Virus record (IMG/VR): IMGVR_UViG_3300034072_001539
Location: 1-35,130 of that record
Length of the DNA stretch: 35,130 bases
Source: a virus
Reading direction: 5' to 3' (one strand)
A program made the translations under genes and the position numbers. Position 1 is the first letter of the stretch, and each line of letters opens with the position of its first letter. The notes below the pieces were generated by a model that did no database searches, was not told the DNA's origin, and was given only the letters and a program-made list of their open reading frames with translations. This document shows, piece by piece, positions 2,629 through 33,130 of the stretch.

Positions 2629-2662
2629 CCGCCAGATTCTGGCCTTGCCGCTGCTCGTGGGG

Positions 2663-2674
2663 TACGATCCGCCC
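2663..2674 (+). promoter_or_regulatory. -10-like box directly before a start codon
   Basis: TACGAT (2663-2668) is followed by six bases and then the ATG of the next gene. No convincing -35 is seen (TGGCCT at 17 nt). The spacing implies transcription starting at or next to the ATG, a leaderless mRNA. The same geometry recurs before the genes at 31203 and 33891 and possibly 18049. Confidence 0.4.
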
Positions 2675-2884
2675 ATGGCTCGTGACGACGGCCCCATGGA
2701 CCTCGACGCCGCCGAGCGCGCGGAGGCACTCGCGACGATCGCCGCAGGGCAGCCCGCACGCGTGTGGCGCGCGGGGCGTATCCTCGTGCTCACCACCCGA
2801 GAGGACGTCGACGCGGTGTGGCCTCCGCGCAGGCACGCCGTGGCGCGCAGGCACCGCGAAGAGGGGTGGTGGCGGCATGCGTAA
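2675..2884 (+). CDS. Small protein of unknown function
   Basis: A 69-residue protein, slightly acidic at the N-terminus, with a basic C-terminus (RRHAVARRHREEGWW). I recognise no domain. The ATG at 2675 was preferred to the in-frame ATG at 2645 because a -10-like box ends six bases before it and the extra residues look non-coding. The stop overlaps the start of the ParB-like gene by 8 nt, so the two are probably translationally coupled. It is the first gene after the putative origin. A start-up or origin-associated role is possible but unproven. Confidence 0.55.
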   Translation: MARDDGPMDLDAAERAEALATIAAGQPARVWRAGRILVLTTREDVDAVWPPRRHAVARRHREEGWWRHA

Positions 2885-3650
2885 AGACACCTCCGCCCGC
2901 GGTCATACCCCCGGCGTCGCTGCGGTATACCTACCGCTCGCGGACCTGCGGCCGAACCCGCGCAACCCCCGCGCGCACGGCGATGAGGTCGTGCGCCTCG
3001 CTCGCACGATCCTGCGCACGACGTGGGGCGCGCCGATCCTTGCCCAGGCCAGCACGCGGCGCATCATCGGCGGGCACGGGCGCTTGGAAGCCGCGAAGCT
3101 CATCGTCGCCGGCCTCGAGGTCGACGGCATCCTGCGCGGCGGGGCTGACCACCTTTTTGATCGCGACGCGCCCGGCCCCGGCATGGTGCCCGTGCGCCTC
3201 GTGGACGTCTCCGACGCCGAGGCCGACGCCATGACCCTCGCGGACAACGCCAGGGCGCTGCAAGGCGTTGACGACGCCGCGGCCGTGGTGGCCATGGCGA
3301 CGCGCGACTTCGCGCGCGACGCCGCGGTCATGGCCGACATGGGCTATGGCGCTGCGGAGCTTGACGCCCTGGTCAAGTCTGCGGGCGATGCGGTGCTTGC
3401 GAGCGCGCCGACGACGGGCACGCCAGTGGACAACGCGACCGAGTGGCAGGGGATGCCGGAGTACGAGTCACAGGACAAGGGGCCGCACCGCACTTTGATT
3501 GTGCACTTCGCCGATGACGCGGCCGTCGCGTCGTTCGCCGATCTCCTCGGCGTGACCATCGCCGAGAAGACTAAGTTTACATGGTATCCACATGTCGAGC
3601 GTCGCGACCTCGCCTCGCTCGCCTACGTGGGCGACGCCGATGATGCCTAG
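2877..3650 (+). CDS. ParB-like N-terminal domain protein
   Basis: A 257-residue protein. Residues about 10-75 show the ParB/Srx-like fold: LRPNPRNPRAHGDEVVRLA, then a hydrophobic strand ending in PILA, then IIGGHGRLEAAKL, which matches the nucleotide-binding GHxR-type motif. The C-terminal part (IVHFADDAAVASFADLLG, then KTKFTWYPHVER) matches the tail of phage ParB-like proteins that sit beside DNA-modification or terminase genes. Such proteins may act as nucleases or CTPase-type DNA clamps; which one cannot be decided here. The next gene, a broken TET-associated-glycosyltransferase homologue, starts within its stop codon region (ATG at 3643), so the two were once one operon unit. That context suggests a link to phage DNA base modification. 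Confidence 0.8.
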   Translation: MRKDTSARGHTPGVAAVYLPLADLRPNPRNPRAHGDEVVRLARTILRTTWGAPILAQASTRRIIGGHGRLEAAKLIVAGLEVDGILRGGADHLFDRDAPGPGMVPVRLVDVSDAEADAMTLADNARALQGVDDAAAVVAMATRDFARDAAVMADMGYGAAELDALVKSAGDAVLASAPTTGTPVDNATEWQGMPEYESQDKGPHRTLIVHFADDAAVASFADLLGVTIAEKTKFTWYPHVERRDLASLAYVGDADDA

Positions 3651-4081
3651 GTTCCCGATCTATGTCCCGACGAAGGGGCGTGCCGTGCTGCGGCAGACCA
3701 GCAATCTACTCGTGCAACCTGATTCGCAACGACGTGCCTTTTCGGTGGCGCGGGCGGTACAATGAGGACACCATCCTTTCACTTGACATGCTCAAAGCGG
3801 GCTGGTGCACAATTCAATTCAACGCATTCCTGCAAAACAAGGTGATGACGCAGCGCGTACGCGGCGGCAACACCGCGGAGTTCTACGCGAAGGAAGGCAC
3901 GGCCCCGAAAAGCGAGATGCTCAAGGCCGTCCACCCCGACGTGACGCGCCTCGTGTGGAAGTTCAATCGCCACCACCACCACGTCGACTACAAGCGATTC
4001 AAGCAGCCGCTCCGGCGCAAGCCCGACGCCGAGATGGTGTCGCCCACCGCCAACGCAATGCGCCTCGTCAAGATAGCCTGA
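3643..4081 (+). pseudogene. TET-associated glycosyltransferase-like gene, internally deleted
   Basis: An ATG at 3643 opens MPRFPIYVPTKGRA, the start typical of phage glycosyltransferases of the TET-associated (TAGT) type. That frame stops at 3763-3765. From about 3695 the next frame reads IYSCNLIRND, then WRGRYNEDTILSLDMLKAGW, then GGNTAEFY and NRHHHHVDYKRF, ending at 4081. This is the conserved C-terminal half of the same family. The central part (my estimate is well over 100 residues, with the usual donor-site region) is absent, and the two pieces are in different frames. The simplest reading is an internal deletion of a gene that added sugars to oxidised 5-methylcytosine in phage DNA. The C-terminal piece could still be translated from 3662 (139 residues). 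No TET/JBP dioxygenase or cytosine methyltransferase is seen in the window. Confidence 0.75.
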
Positions 4082-4560
4082 TGCCGCGCCCTACGATCAT
4101 CGCCACGGCTGGCCCTGTGATCATCGGCGCGCGTCGCGTGGGCTCGCCCCTGCGCTCGTGCGCCGCCGCCGCGGGAGTGCCGTGGATCACAGTCGCCAAG
4201 TGGCTGCGCCGCGGGCGCGAGGCTATCGCAAGCGGGCACGTCTCCGAGGCTGACAAGCCCTTCGCCGACTTCGCGATCGAGTGTGATCGCGCGTCGGCGC
4301 AGCTTGAACAGGTGCTGCGCGCTCGCGTGCTCAAAGGGACTGAGGAGGACGCGCGGCTCGCGCTCGACTATGTGCGCTGGCTTGACGGCGAGCGCGACCG
4401 ACGCCTTGCGCGTGGCCTTGAGCGTGCGAGGTTGCGCAAGCTCGGTGCCGATGCGACCCTTGCCGAAGCCGCGTCGAAAGCCATCGGCGCCGCAGAGACG
4501 ATCACCCTGACACTACCCGCGAGCGTGTCCACGCCGCGCACCGACGGAGACGACACATGA
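4081..4560 (+). CDS. Putative terminase small subunit
   Basis: A 159-residue protein starting at an ATG that overlaps the previous stop (TGATG). Residues about 18-45 form a helix-turn-helix (LRSCAAAAGVPWITVAKWLRR), followed by a helical region with DKPFADFAIECDRASAQLEQ and an RALDYVRWLDGERDRR-like stretch. This arrangement of HTH plus amphipathic helices is usual for small terminase subunits that recognise the packaging site and form an oligomeric ring. The position, one gene before the large terminase, supports it. I do not see a family-specific catalytic motif, and the family has none. Moderate certainty. Confidence 0.65.
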   Translation: MPRPTIIATAGPVIIGARRVGSPLRSCAAAAGVPWITVAKWLRRGREAIASGHVSEADKPFADFAIECDRASAQLEQVLRARVLKGTEEDARLALDYVRWLDGERDRRLARGLERARLRKLGADATLAEAASKAIGAAETITLTLPASVSTPRTDGDDT

Positions 4561-4883
4561 GCGCAGCACCCTACCCCGACGCCAAATACCTCGACGTGAT
4601 GCCGCTGCACTCCGCGGCTGCGGTCTACCGCCTCGACATCTCCGCGGTCAGCGCGAGCATCACCTTGCCCGCGGGCGGGTACCTCGTGTGCGTCGAGGGC
4701 ATGAGTTCGGGCTACGCCGTGGGTCGCCTCGGCGCTGCGGCTGCGGTGCCCGCGGACGGCGCCAGCGTGACGGGCTTCCACCTCTCGCCCGGCGCGATCT
4801 ACACCCTCGACACGCCCGACGCCGTGCTGCACGCGATCACTTCGACGGGCACGGGCACGCTCCTCGCCACTAAGCTCCGGTGA
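4557..4883 (+). CDS. Small structural-type protein of unknown function
   Basis: A 108-residue protein rich in small and beta-branched residues (SITLPAGGYLVCVEGMSSGY, then a GTGTLLATKLR end). It looks like a small beta-sandwich, as seen in minor virion proteins. It lies between the small and large terminase genes and overlaps both by 4 nt (ATGA; then GTGA). No motif identifies its job. It could be a head or decoration protein. Confidence 0.6.
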   Translation: MSAAPYPDAKYLDVMPLHSAAAVYRLDISAVSASITLPAGGYLVCVEGMSSGYAVGRLGAAAAVPADGASVTGFHLSPGAIYTLDTPDAVLHAITSTGTGTLLATKLR

Positions 4884-6175
4884 TCTATGCGCCCAGCCCT
4901 CGGCAAGAAGCCTTCCATCGCTGCGCCGCAGCGTGGCGGTGGTACTGCGCGGGTTACGGGTCGGGTAAGACCACGGCCTCGGTCATCGAGGCGGTACGCG
5001 CTGCGACGGTGACGCACCCTGGCTACGTCGGCATCGCAGCCGCGCCGACGTACGCGTTGCTATTTCAGGCTTGGGTCGCGGAGTGGGAGCGGTGGGTGCC
5101 GCGCGCGGCGTGGTCGCTGCGGCGTGACCCGCTGACAGGGCCGCGCATCGAGATGCCGACGCCTGAGGGGCTGTCGGTGATCTACCTTCGCAGCACCGAC
5201 CGCCCGTCAAGCAACGAGGGCATCAACGCGGCGTGGCTGTGCTTCGACGAGGCCAGCCGCGAAAACGACCGCGCCGCCTTTGACGTGCTCGCGAGCCGCG
5301 TCCGCCGTGGCTACCCAGGGCGCCAGCGCACGATCATCCTGACCGGCCCGCCAATGACGAGGCGCCATTGGACGGCGCAGGAGTTCGGCAGCGGCCCCGG
5401 CGGTGAGTACACCGGCGACGCGCTTACGTGGCGCTCGGGCGCGCGCGCCGTCGTGCGAGCTCGCACGCGCGACAACCCCCACCTGCCGAGCGACTACGAA
5501 GCCAACCTTCGCGCCCGCCCCGGCGCCTCTCGCGCGTGGTGCGCGCAGTGGTTGGACGCTGAGTTTGGTGCGATGGAAGGGCAGGTTTACGAGGCCTTCT
5601 CGCGCGACGTGCACGTTGTCCCGGCGGCATCGCTCCGCGGTCGGCAGTGGCGCCGCATCGTCGCCGGCGTGGACTGGGGATGGGCGCACCCCGGCGTGTG
5701 CATCGTCGCCGCGCAGGACGGCCACGGGGATATCTACGTGCTGCACGAGGAGGTACACCAGCGCCGCGTGGTCGCCGAGGACACCGGGTGGGGCCCGACG
5801 TGGCGCGATGTGATTCGCACGTGGCGGGTGCAAGAGCTTGCCTGCGACCCGTCGGGGCCCGGCAACATCACGGTGTGCGGCGCCGTCGCCGGTAGCCTTG
5901 GCGCGCGGGCGTACGGCGCCGACAACCGTGTTGACGAGGGCATCCGTCGCGTGACCACGAGGCTTGAGCGCGCTACCGCCCGCCGTGGTGGCCCAGCACG
6001 CGAGCCCGCGCTGTATGTGAGCGATGCCTGCACCCACACGATTGGCGAGTTTGAGTCCTACTCGCGCAAGCGGGCCCGCGATGGTAGCTTGCTTGAGGCT
6101 CCCGCCGAGGTCGGTGACGACGCGATGGATGCCCTGCGCTACGCTGTGATGGCGCTCACGAGGTACGACGAATGA
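4880..6175 (+). CDS. terL: Terminase large subunit
   Basis: A 431-residue DNA-packaging motor. The ATPase domain carries Walker A GYGSGKTT (residues 25-32) and Walker B WLCFDEAS (D123, E124), with a coupling-type TGPP near 155-158. The nuclease domain has the RNase-H-like acidic residues VAGVDWGWAHP (D265), ACDPSG (D323) and GDDAMDALR (D413, D414, D417). RDNPHLPSDY (about 197-206) is a conserved linker signature. It would translocate and cut concatemeric phage DNA at the portal. The start is GTG at 4880, in GTGA overlap with the preceding stop. The portal gene begins four bases before its end. Both catalytic centres look intact. Confidence 0.95.
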   Translation: MIYAPSPRQEAFHRCAAAWRWYCAGYGSGKTTASVIEAVRAATVTHPGYVGIAAAPTYALLFQAWVAEWERWVPRAAWSLRRDPLTGPRIEMPTPEGLSVIYLRSTDRPSSNEGINAAWLCFDEASRENDRAAFDVLASRVRRGYPGRQRTIILTGPPMTRRHWTAQEFGSGPGGEYTGDALTWRSGARAVVRARTRDNPHLPSDYEANLRARPGASRAWCAQWLDAEFGAMEGQVYEAFSRDVHVVPAASLRGRQWRRIVAGVDWGWAHPGVCIVAAQDGHGDIYVLHEEVHQRRVVAEDTGWGPTWRDVIRTWRVQELACDPSGPGNITVCGAVAGSLGARAYGADNRVDEGIRRVTTRLERATARRGGPAREPALYVSDACTHTIGEFESYSRKRARDGSLLEAPAEVGDDAMDALRYAVMALTRYDE

Positions 6176-26690: not shown

Positions 26691-27089
26691 TCAGACACAA
26701 TCCTCTGCGGCGATCTCGGCGAGCGCCTCCGCCTCAGGGCACCCGCTGTCGTGCAAGATCGTGTCAAGGGCTGCAAGGTCGCCACGCCCGCGCAAGGCCT
26801 CGTCAAGGGCCTCGTACAGTGCCAGCTCGTCGGAGTCGTCGCCGTCGAAGCCCGAGAGCACCACCACGGGGATGGTGTCGAGCCCCGCCGCGCAAGCCGC
26901 CGCAATGCGGTGCGAGCCCGTGAGAGGCCGAGGCACGTCGCCCTCGGCGCAGAAGGCGAGGACGGGTCGCCCCTGCCAACCGCCCGCGCGCATCGACGCG
27001 GCAAGGGCCTCGTAGTGCGCCGCGTTCCGCACCGCGTGGGGCGGGCGCAGGGTGGCGGGGTCGATGTGCAGCGTGTCGGTGGTCAGCAT
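26691..27089 (-). CDS. ParB/Srx-like small protein
   Basis: A 132-residue protein with ATG 27089 chosen because an AGGAGA Shine-Dalgarno lies 9 bases upstream and the promoter is about 45 bases away. LHIDPATLRPPHAVRNAAHY, then PVLAFCAEGDVPRPLTGSHR (GSHR in the place of the ParB GHRR motif) and IPVVVLSGFDG show a compact ParB/Srx-type nucleotide-binding domain without the DNA-binding half. It could be a nuclease or a regulator. It is the first gene of a promoter controlled by the TTGACAC operator, so it is probably an early gene. Confidence 0.65.
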   Translation of the reverse strand: MLTTDTLHIDPATLRPPHAVRNAAHYEALAASMRAGGWQGRPVLAFCAEGDVPRPLTGSHRIAAACAAGLDTIPVVVLSGFDGDDSDELALYEALDEALRGRGDLAALDTILHDSGCPEAEALAEIAAEDCV

Positions 27090-27132
27090 GTCGTCGTCTC
27101 CTATCGGGGCGCTCCGTGCCTCCGATGGGTAG

Positions 27133-27175
27133 ACTATAGGTACCGCTTGCCACCGTGTCAAGCTTTTCTTGACAC
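27133..27175 (-). promoter_or_regulatory. Promoter with inverted-repeat operator
   Basis: On the minus strand TTGACA (27161-27156), a 17-nt spacer and TATAGT (27138-27133) make a near-consensus sigma70-type promoter for the ParB-like gene. A perfect inverted repeat GTGTCAAG-N5-CTTGACAC (27155-27175) overlaps the -35. The half-site CTTGACAC is shared with the divergent promoters at 31110-31196. This is the strongest promoter match in the window. Confidence 0.85.
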
Positions 27176-32165: not shown

Positions 32166-33130
32166 CTCGCCGCCGCGCACCTGTGCCCGCCCCTGCGCCC
32201 GCGCCGTGCACCTGCGGAGGCGCCCCACACGCGCTGACGTGCGAGGCGGTGGCCTTGCGGCTCACGATCCCCACGCCCACCACGCGCCCTGCGGCGCCTG
32301 CCCGCGTGACCGGGCGCGACCCGTACCGCGTGCCGGGCCCCGCCGTCGTGTCGGTGTCGGGTGGCCGCACGAGCGCGTACATGCTCCGCAGGGTGCTCGA
32401 CGCCTACGGCGGGCGACTGCCGCCCGACGTGCACGCCGTCTTCGCCAACACGGGCGAAGAAGACCCCAGGACGCTCGACTTCGTGCGCGACATTCAAGAG
32501 CGGTGGTGTCCGATTACGTGGGTCGAATACGACCCCGATGCAGAGCACGGCTTTCGCGAGGTCGAATACGAGACGGCCAGCCGCAAAGGCGAACCCTTCG
32601 CAGAGCTCATCCGACAAAAGCGATTCCTGCCAAATGGGCGCGCGCGCTTCTGTACCCAGGAGCTCAAGATTTTCACGATGGCGGGCTACATGCGCTCGCT
32701 CGGGTACGGAGATGACTGGACAAACTGCGTCGGGCTGCGCTGGGACGAGCCAAAGCGCGTGGCCGACCACAGCGCGCGCGAGTGCGATTGGCATAACGCC
32801 TATCCCCTCTACGATGACCGGGTAATCAAGCCTACGGTGAGGGCCTTCTTTTCGGCACAAGACTTCGACTTGAAGACGCCAGAGCACCTGGGCAACTGCA
32901 CCCAGTGCTTCCTGAAGGGCAAAACTCTCCGAATGCATGCAGCGCGGGATGCGCCCGAGGCCGCCGCGCGATTTGCTGCGCACGAAGCCAACGTTGGCGC
33001 GCGCTTTATCCACAAGGAGCCCGGCGGTTACGCGGCCACAATCGACAAGGTGCGACGCCTCCCCGTGCTCCCACACATCGACCCCACGGACGCGGAGTCG
33101 GTGATGCTCCCGTGTGACTGCACACAGTGA
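32162..33130 (+). CDS. PP-loop ATPase, PAPS-reductase-like phage protein
   Basis: A 322-residue protein, GTG at 32162 in GTGA overlap. A P/A-rich cysteine-containing tail (CTCGGAPHALTC, 16-27) precedes the PP-loop SVSGGRTSAYM (64-74), the ATP-binding motif of PAPS-reductase/N-type ATP pyrophosphatases. Further motifs are VFANTGEEDPRTLDFVRDIQ, FCTQELKIF, NCVGLRWDEPKRV, GNCTQCFLKGK and the final LPCDCTQ; the cysteines may bind metal or a sulfur carrier. Such phage proteins are widespread but uncharacterised; reactions suggested include sulfur or nucleotide modification. The codon use from about 32440 to 33060 is lower in GC than its surroundings, which suggests recent gain. Confidence 0.7.
   Translation: MTRRRAPVPAPAPAPCTCGGAPHALTCEAVALRLTIPTPTTRPAAPARVTGRDPYRVPGPAVVSVSGGRTSAYMLRRVLDAYGGRLPPDVHAVFANTGEEDPRTLDFVRDIQERWCPITWVEYDPDAEHGFREVEYETASRKGEPFAELIRQKRFLPNGRARFCTQELKIFTMAGYMRSLGYGDDWTNCVGLRWDEPKRVADHSARECDWHNAYPLYDDRVIKPTVRAFFSAQDFDLKTPEHLGNCTQCFLKGKTLRMHAARDAPEAAARFAAHEANVGARFIHKEPGGYAATIDKVRRLPVLPHIDPTDAESVMLPCDCTQ

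Follow-up and report, generated by a model that had tools for sequence, protein, structure and literature searches.

Phage TET/TAGT systems (TAGT, TET-associated glycosyltransferase) were reportedly described in a 2013 NAR paper and a 2021 PNAS paper. In T6-like phages, the role assigned to TAGT is the second glucosylation step at DNA cytosines (PMC13390438). ParBc domains occur beside, or are fused to, phage DNA methyltransferases, where their role was left open, and an SPPC motif has been named for the carboxymethyltransferase CmoX (PMC12783734). No paper was found in the open-access literature in which TAGT, Mom, and methyltransferases replace one another on a single ParB lineage.

The virus record analyzed here (the window) is 35,130 bases long and GC-rich, and contains no tRNA genes and no terminal repeat. 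Between a small ORF and the terminase genes lies a position (the slot) that related phages fill with different enzymes, and in the window this slot holds an intact ParB-like gene followed by two pieces of a TAGT gene. We consider it probable that a TAGT gene of the GT-A type was recently inactivated by an internal deletion of ~425 bp, in an exchangeable phage DNA-modification slot. L002, which is the closest relative with an intact gene, has the same gene order (ParB, TAGT, small terminase, large terminase, and portal); L084 and L082 are related phage loci that are considered below. The features are as follows:

2645..2881, plus strand: small 79-aa ORF, left border of the slot (93% identical in L084, 49% in L082)
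2877..3647 (stop 3648-3650), plus strand: intact ParB-like protein of 257 aa (PHROG ParB-like, 1.2e-18; AF2 model compared with ParB structures)
2877..3398, plus strand: ParB-N module, residues 1-174, common to phages with different enzymes
3432..3647, plus strand: ParB-C, the TAGT-linked tail domain (EWQGMPEYESQD...KTKFTWYP), identified by its linkage to TAGT
3643..3762, plus strand: 5' remnant of TAGT, a 40-aa frame closed by TGA 3763-3765, whose start overlaps the ParB stop
3681..3706, plus strand: deletion joint, ~425 bp missing relative to L002 (alignment to L002)
3704..4078, plus strand: 3' remnant of TAGT, the C-terminal half, with no further lesions (PF20691, 4.5e-11)
4081..4557, plus strand: terminase small subunit, right border of the slot (PHROG 4102, 1.3e-7; residues 1-119 are 92% identical in L084)
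4880..6172, plus strand: terminase large subunit (PHROG 2, 8.3e-31; Terminase_6N, 2.3e-6)

Internal deletion of the TAGT gene

The frame at 3662-4078 matches PF20691, the TAGT family, with an E-value of 4.5e-11 at profile positions 151-205 of 205; its 43.5 bits exceed the curated cut-off of 27.5, and only the final quarter of the profile is covered. The same frame matches PHROG 842 (1.5e-21, positions 148-242 of 270). When compared to the intact 291-aa TAGT of L002, this C-terminal half is 85% identical over 134 residues, which rules out a chance similarity to TAGT, and its DNA is 85% identical over 367 bp. The 5' frame, which opens at 3643 (MPRFPIYVPTKGRAVLRQTSN), aligns to the first 26 residues of the L002 protein (65%, 2e-6). 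The overlap of its start with the ParB stop is common to most relatives. Relative to L002, the gap amounts to ~425 bp (~142 residues), and the joint falls within 3681-3706; since 425 leaves a remainder of 2 on division by 3, the two halves are out of frame. A sequence-only reading of this DNA had described out-of-frame TAGT halves without the middle, joined at 3684-3700, and this is confirmed by PF20691, PHROG 842, and the L002 alignment at both ends, with a joint that agrees with ours. Alignment to the L002 TAGT defines the missing segment as residues ~23-164 of that protein. The segment includes the DDN motif (residues 102-104) and accounts for 40 of the 92 positions with at least 90% conservation. 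The missing middle is absent from the rest of the window, which excludes its having been moved within the window or inverted.

A sequence search returned no convincing solved structure for TAGT. According to structure prediction (pLDDT 92), the L002 TAGT resembles GT-A glycosyltransferases (GnT-I and heparosan synthase; E ~5e-5), and therefore the deletion takes out the nucleotide-sugar half of the fold. Intact TAGT relatives combine the conserved DDN motif with the GT-A fold. With residues 23-164 gone, the window TAGT has no full GT-A domain with a DDN metal site and is, to judge from its sequence, a pseudogene and no working member of the family. It might be argued that the remnant is still useful, either through the 139-aa C-terminal frame (ATG 3662) working in truncated form or through a frameshift that joins the halves, since conservation is high in the C-terminal half and an ATG is present in that frame. 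However, the DDN site and half of the fold are gone, beyond repair by frameshift, and no stand-alone C-terminal half is found among the loci of relatives. Moreover, ATG 3662 falls within the 5' remnant but in a different frame, and is distant from the ParB stop, where TAGT begins in relatives. We consider a useful remnant highly improbable.

Relatives were compared for an intact gene, and all 93 fetched loci that are uncut by contig ends contain a full-length TAGT frame. A second set of 78 further TAGT-bearing loci includes one frameshifted TAGT (L204, 404-1352), which is split across two frames with no sequence lost, through either a frameshift or a sequencing error. Between the window and L002, the surviving half has a dN/dS of 0.064, and the intact TAGT pairs computed have values of 0.07-0.18. 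This resemblance to intact pairs indicates that the break is recent, or that most copies of the phage still carry an intact gene. The TAGT gene of the window is either a recent pseudogene or an assembly gap.

In the latter case, the contig would have skipped ~425 bp, through misassembly or as a minority variant, and an intact TAGT would be present in the dominant genome. This is compatible with a gene that is broken here and intact in 93 of 93 complete relatives, with a remnant that is free of further lesions and under ordinary purifying selection, and with the window being a metagenome contig for which no second copy of the joint was found. On the other hand, the intact L002 gene contains no exact direct repeats of at least 10 bp (the longest listed is 9 bp), which speaks against a repeat-driven collapse and makes assembler collapse less likely. 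Any overlap at the joint is only a few bases, far below the usual assembler k-mer, so reads that carry the joint should exist; there are no Ns at the joint, and the neighboring genes are open and full-length. Among the viral contigs open to the search, no second one with the same joint was found, and a search with two exact 30-mers found no near-identical contigs. We regard an assembly error or minority variant as unlikely, though of some weight, and prefer a recent deletion in the phage itself.

The ParB-like gene and its TAGT-linked tail

The ParB-like gene just upstream was thought to be intact, which is correct, and the TAGT-linked tail is kept as well. Its product consists of two modules, ParB-N and a tail of ~65 residues (residues ~186-257, EWQGMPEY...KTKFTWYP). 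ParB-N is ParB-like by both sequence (PHROG ParB-like, 1.2e-18) and fold, as the AF2 model matches ParB structures solved with CDP or CTP analogues (7bm8, 6sdk, and 7bnr; E ~1e-5). No Pfam family, including ParB_N, matches the window ParB at E<=1, and the tail has no Pfam match.

Of the 70 TAGT loci whose upstream sequence is 900 bp or longer, all 70 match a profile of the tail on the upstream side of TAGT, and the match nearly always abuts or overlaps the gene. Conversely, when loci were fetched by the tail alone, TAGT lay downstream in 78 of 79, at a median gap of 5 bp, and the sole exception has just 543 bp of sequence remaining. Fusions of the tail with TAGT occur in cultured phages (Aeromonas phage 65, Tenacibaculum phage PTm1, and Vibrio phages Kuja and 1.076.O), as well as in the locus L057. 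Among TAGT-linked ParB proteins the tail is more conserved than ParB-N, and none was found in ParB-N loci with other enzymes.

Three further arrangements were observed. Vibrio phage Kuja has two ParB-C::TAGT fusions in tandem (L130, 3098-5786), and two tandem TAGT genes are present in the viral contig L170 (2126-4039). The window also encodes a second, short ParB-like protein on the minus strand (26694-27161; PHROG 723, 2e-6), with no obvious TAGT-type tail.

Replacement of tail and enzyme at the slot

Loci for the comparison of slots were found by searching separately with ParB-N (window residues 1-174), and slot enzymes were named by Pfam (Mom, PF25680; C5-methyltransferase, PF00145; N6_N4_Mtase, PF01555). 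ParB-N is followed by TAGT with its own tail in L002, L003, L004, L085, L086, and L097-L099; by Mom in L084 and L095; by a C5-methyltransferase in L087, L091, and L096; by a fused N6/N4-methyltransferase in L088, L090, and L093, with L089 and L094 counted here as near copies of L088 and L093; and by a cupin and a PP-loop-like protein in L092. In L082, whose large terminase is 73% identical to that of the window, the slot content is wholly absent. No bacterial genome with the window type of ParB-N was found, and isolated phages gave two weak matches only.

The ParB-N of the window is 93% identical to that of L084 (Mom), 82% to that of L087 (C5-methyltransferase), and 75% to that of L085 (TAGT). 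The window and L084 share ~92% nucleotide identity up to ~3397 and again over 4081-4394, with no homology between. Likewise, the ParB-N modules of L085 (TAGT) and L091 (C5) are 98% identical, and those of L086 (TAGT), L088 (N6/N4), and L092 (cupin) are 96-98% identical, while in both groups the tails and enzymes are unrelated. Such ParB-N modules, 93-98% identical and joined to unrelated enzymes, indicate that tail and enzyme are exchanged as a unit. The tails behave in the opposite manner: those of the two Mom loci, L084 and L095, are 87% identical with ParB-N modules at 63%, and among the C5 loci the identity is 74-80% for the tails and 64-66% for ParB-N. High tail identity where ParB-N identity is low shows that tail and enzyme move together, with the joint at the end of ParB-N.

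On a ParB-N tree of 19 rows and five enzyme types, 9 enzyme changes are counted, on a short tree with strong support on two branches only and mostly weak support elsewhere; overall, the count is close to that from shuffled labels. The number of changes is compatible with frequent exchange, and gives no date. The window encodes RecT, which is a plausible agent of these exchanges.

Several details of the slot and its borders may be added. The small terminases of the window and L084 (2861-3300) are 92% identical over residues 1-119 and then diverge, and similarity between the large terminases is only distant, which marks a second recombination joint. In the L092 slot (3537-5233), the cupin-like protein has a weak Pfam match and the PP-loop-like protein none; by its position, this pair is a candidate DNA-modification system. 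The C5-type enzymes in the slots of L087, L091, and L096 carry the SPPC motif.

The target of TAGT and the role of the slot

The sequence-only reading took the window for a cytosine-hypermodification cassette in the process of loss. It had noted no TET or C5-methyltransferase gene, and indeed neither TET/JBP (PF12851) nor a C5-methyltransferase has a Pfam match in the window. It had also suggested a comparison with relatives for a TET gene, and this gave it no support. Above the cut-off, TET/JBP was found in none of 40 related records, most of which have an intact TAGT, with one weak match below the cut-off, in a survey that included many fragments and used a Pfam model that may miss divergent phage TETs. 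A ParB-TAGT pair without TET is, as a strong tendency, the usual state among related records. Since TET is also missing next to intact TAGT genes, its absence is no sign of a decaying cassette, and was rejected as evidence for one; for the same reason, cytosine hypermodification is not supported. What stands of the earlier interpretation is thus a deleted TAGT beside an intact ParB, with no TET or C5-methyltransferase, and what falls is the loss of a TET-based cassette; the exchange of slot enzymes among related phages had escaped that reading. A C5-methyltransferase is present in 7 of the 40 records, and stands in place of TAGT in three of these (L087, L091, and L096). A thymidylate-synthase-type enzyme was found in one record and in none of the other 39.

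A TAGT without TET raises the direct question of which base it modifies. The target could also be a protein or a cell-surface sugar instead of DNA, with the nearness of ParB incidental. In favor of this, no TET above the cut-off (40 records) and no thymidylate-synthase-type hydroxymethylase (39 of 40) were found, so there is no obvious hydroxylated base for TAGT, and the GT-A fold search returns protein- and polysaccharide-modifying enzymes. However, TAGT is coupled near-absolutely to the ParB tail and in some phages fused with it, the same slot is otherwise filled by families of DNA-modifying enzymes, and the T6-like phage TAGT is assigned to DNA cytosine glucosylation (PMC13390438). We therefore hold a non-DNA target to be quite unlikely, and take DNA as the probable target of TAGT in what follows.

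From linkage and fold, ParB-N, with its ParB/CTPase fold, may serve as a common DNA-bound platform, and the tail would be an enzyme-specific adaptor or tether. The enzyme in the slot would modify phage DNA and so help it to escape the nucleases of the host. In this phage, the platform and the TAGT adaptor appear to have been kept with a dead enzyme, and TAGT-dependent glycosylation is expected to be absent because TAGT is dead. Loss and exchange at the slot could allow related phages to change their DNA chemistry rapidly, and the TAGT break looks like one step in this turnover of phage DNA camouflage. We give about even chances to a fuller version, in which ParB is a platform with a plug-in site, tail and enzyme recombine at the end of ParB-N, the tail is an undescribed TAGT adaptor, and the window slot was caught after the death of TAGT. 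This version covers the TAGT, Mom, C5-methyltransferase, N6/N4-methyltransferase, and cupin/PP-loop units, and predicts that each tail binds its own enzyme and that ParB-N brings the enzyme to DNA. By itself, the TAGT break is an ordinary pseudogene; the interest lies in the exchangeable ParB-linked slot, which offers a clear way to ask why phage DNA-modifying enzymes come with ParB-like domains.

Elsewhere in the window, a PAPS-reductase-like protein is encoded on the plus strand (32237-33127; PHROG 424, 3.7e-47), which also matches the PADLOC model of the phosphorothioation protein SspD (1.6e-14). From these matches, it is possibly a second DNA-modification gene of the window.

Among described systems, the TAGT family (PF20691; PHROG 842, beta-glucosyl-HMC-alpha-glucosyltransferase) is the sequence family of the window remnant, although here the catalytic half is deleted, and the intact relatives are linked with ParB instead of TET. 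The T6-like TAGT of Straboviridae is of the same Pfam family and is assigned to phage DNA (PMC13390438); T6-like phages make hydroxymethylcytosine, whereas no such pathway was seen in the sampled ParB-TAGT phages. Mom, C5-methyltransferase, and N6_N4_Mtase replace TAGT in the same slot of related phages, and are absent from the window slot. The ParBc-methyltransferase proteins (PMC12783734) likewise pair a DNA-modifying enzyme with an adjacent or fused ParB-like DNA-binding domain; in contrast, a single ParB-N lineage is joined here to enzymes of five kinds, and the tail differs with the enzyme.
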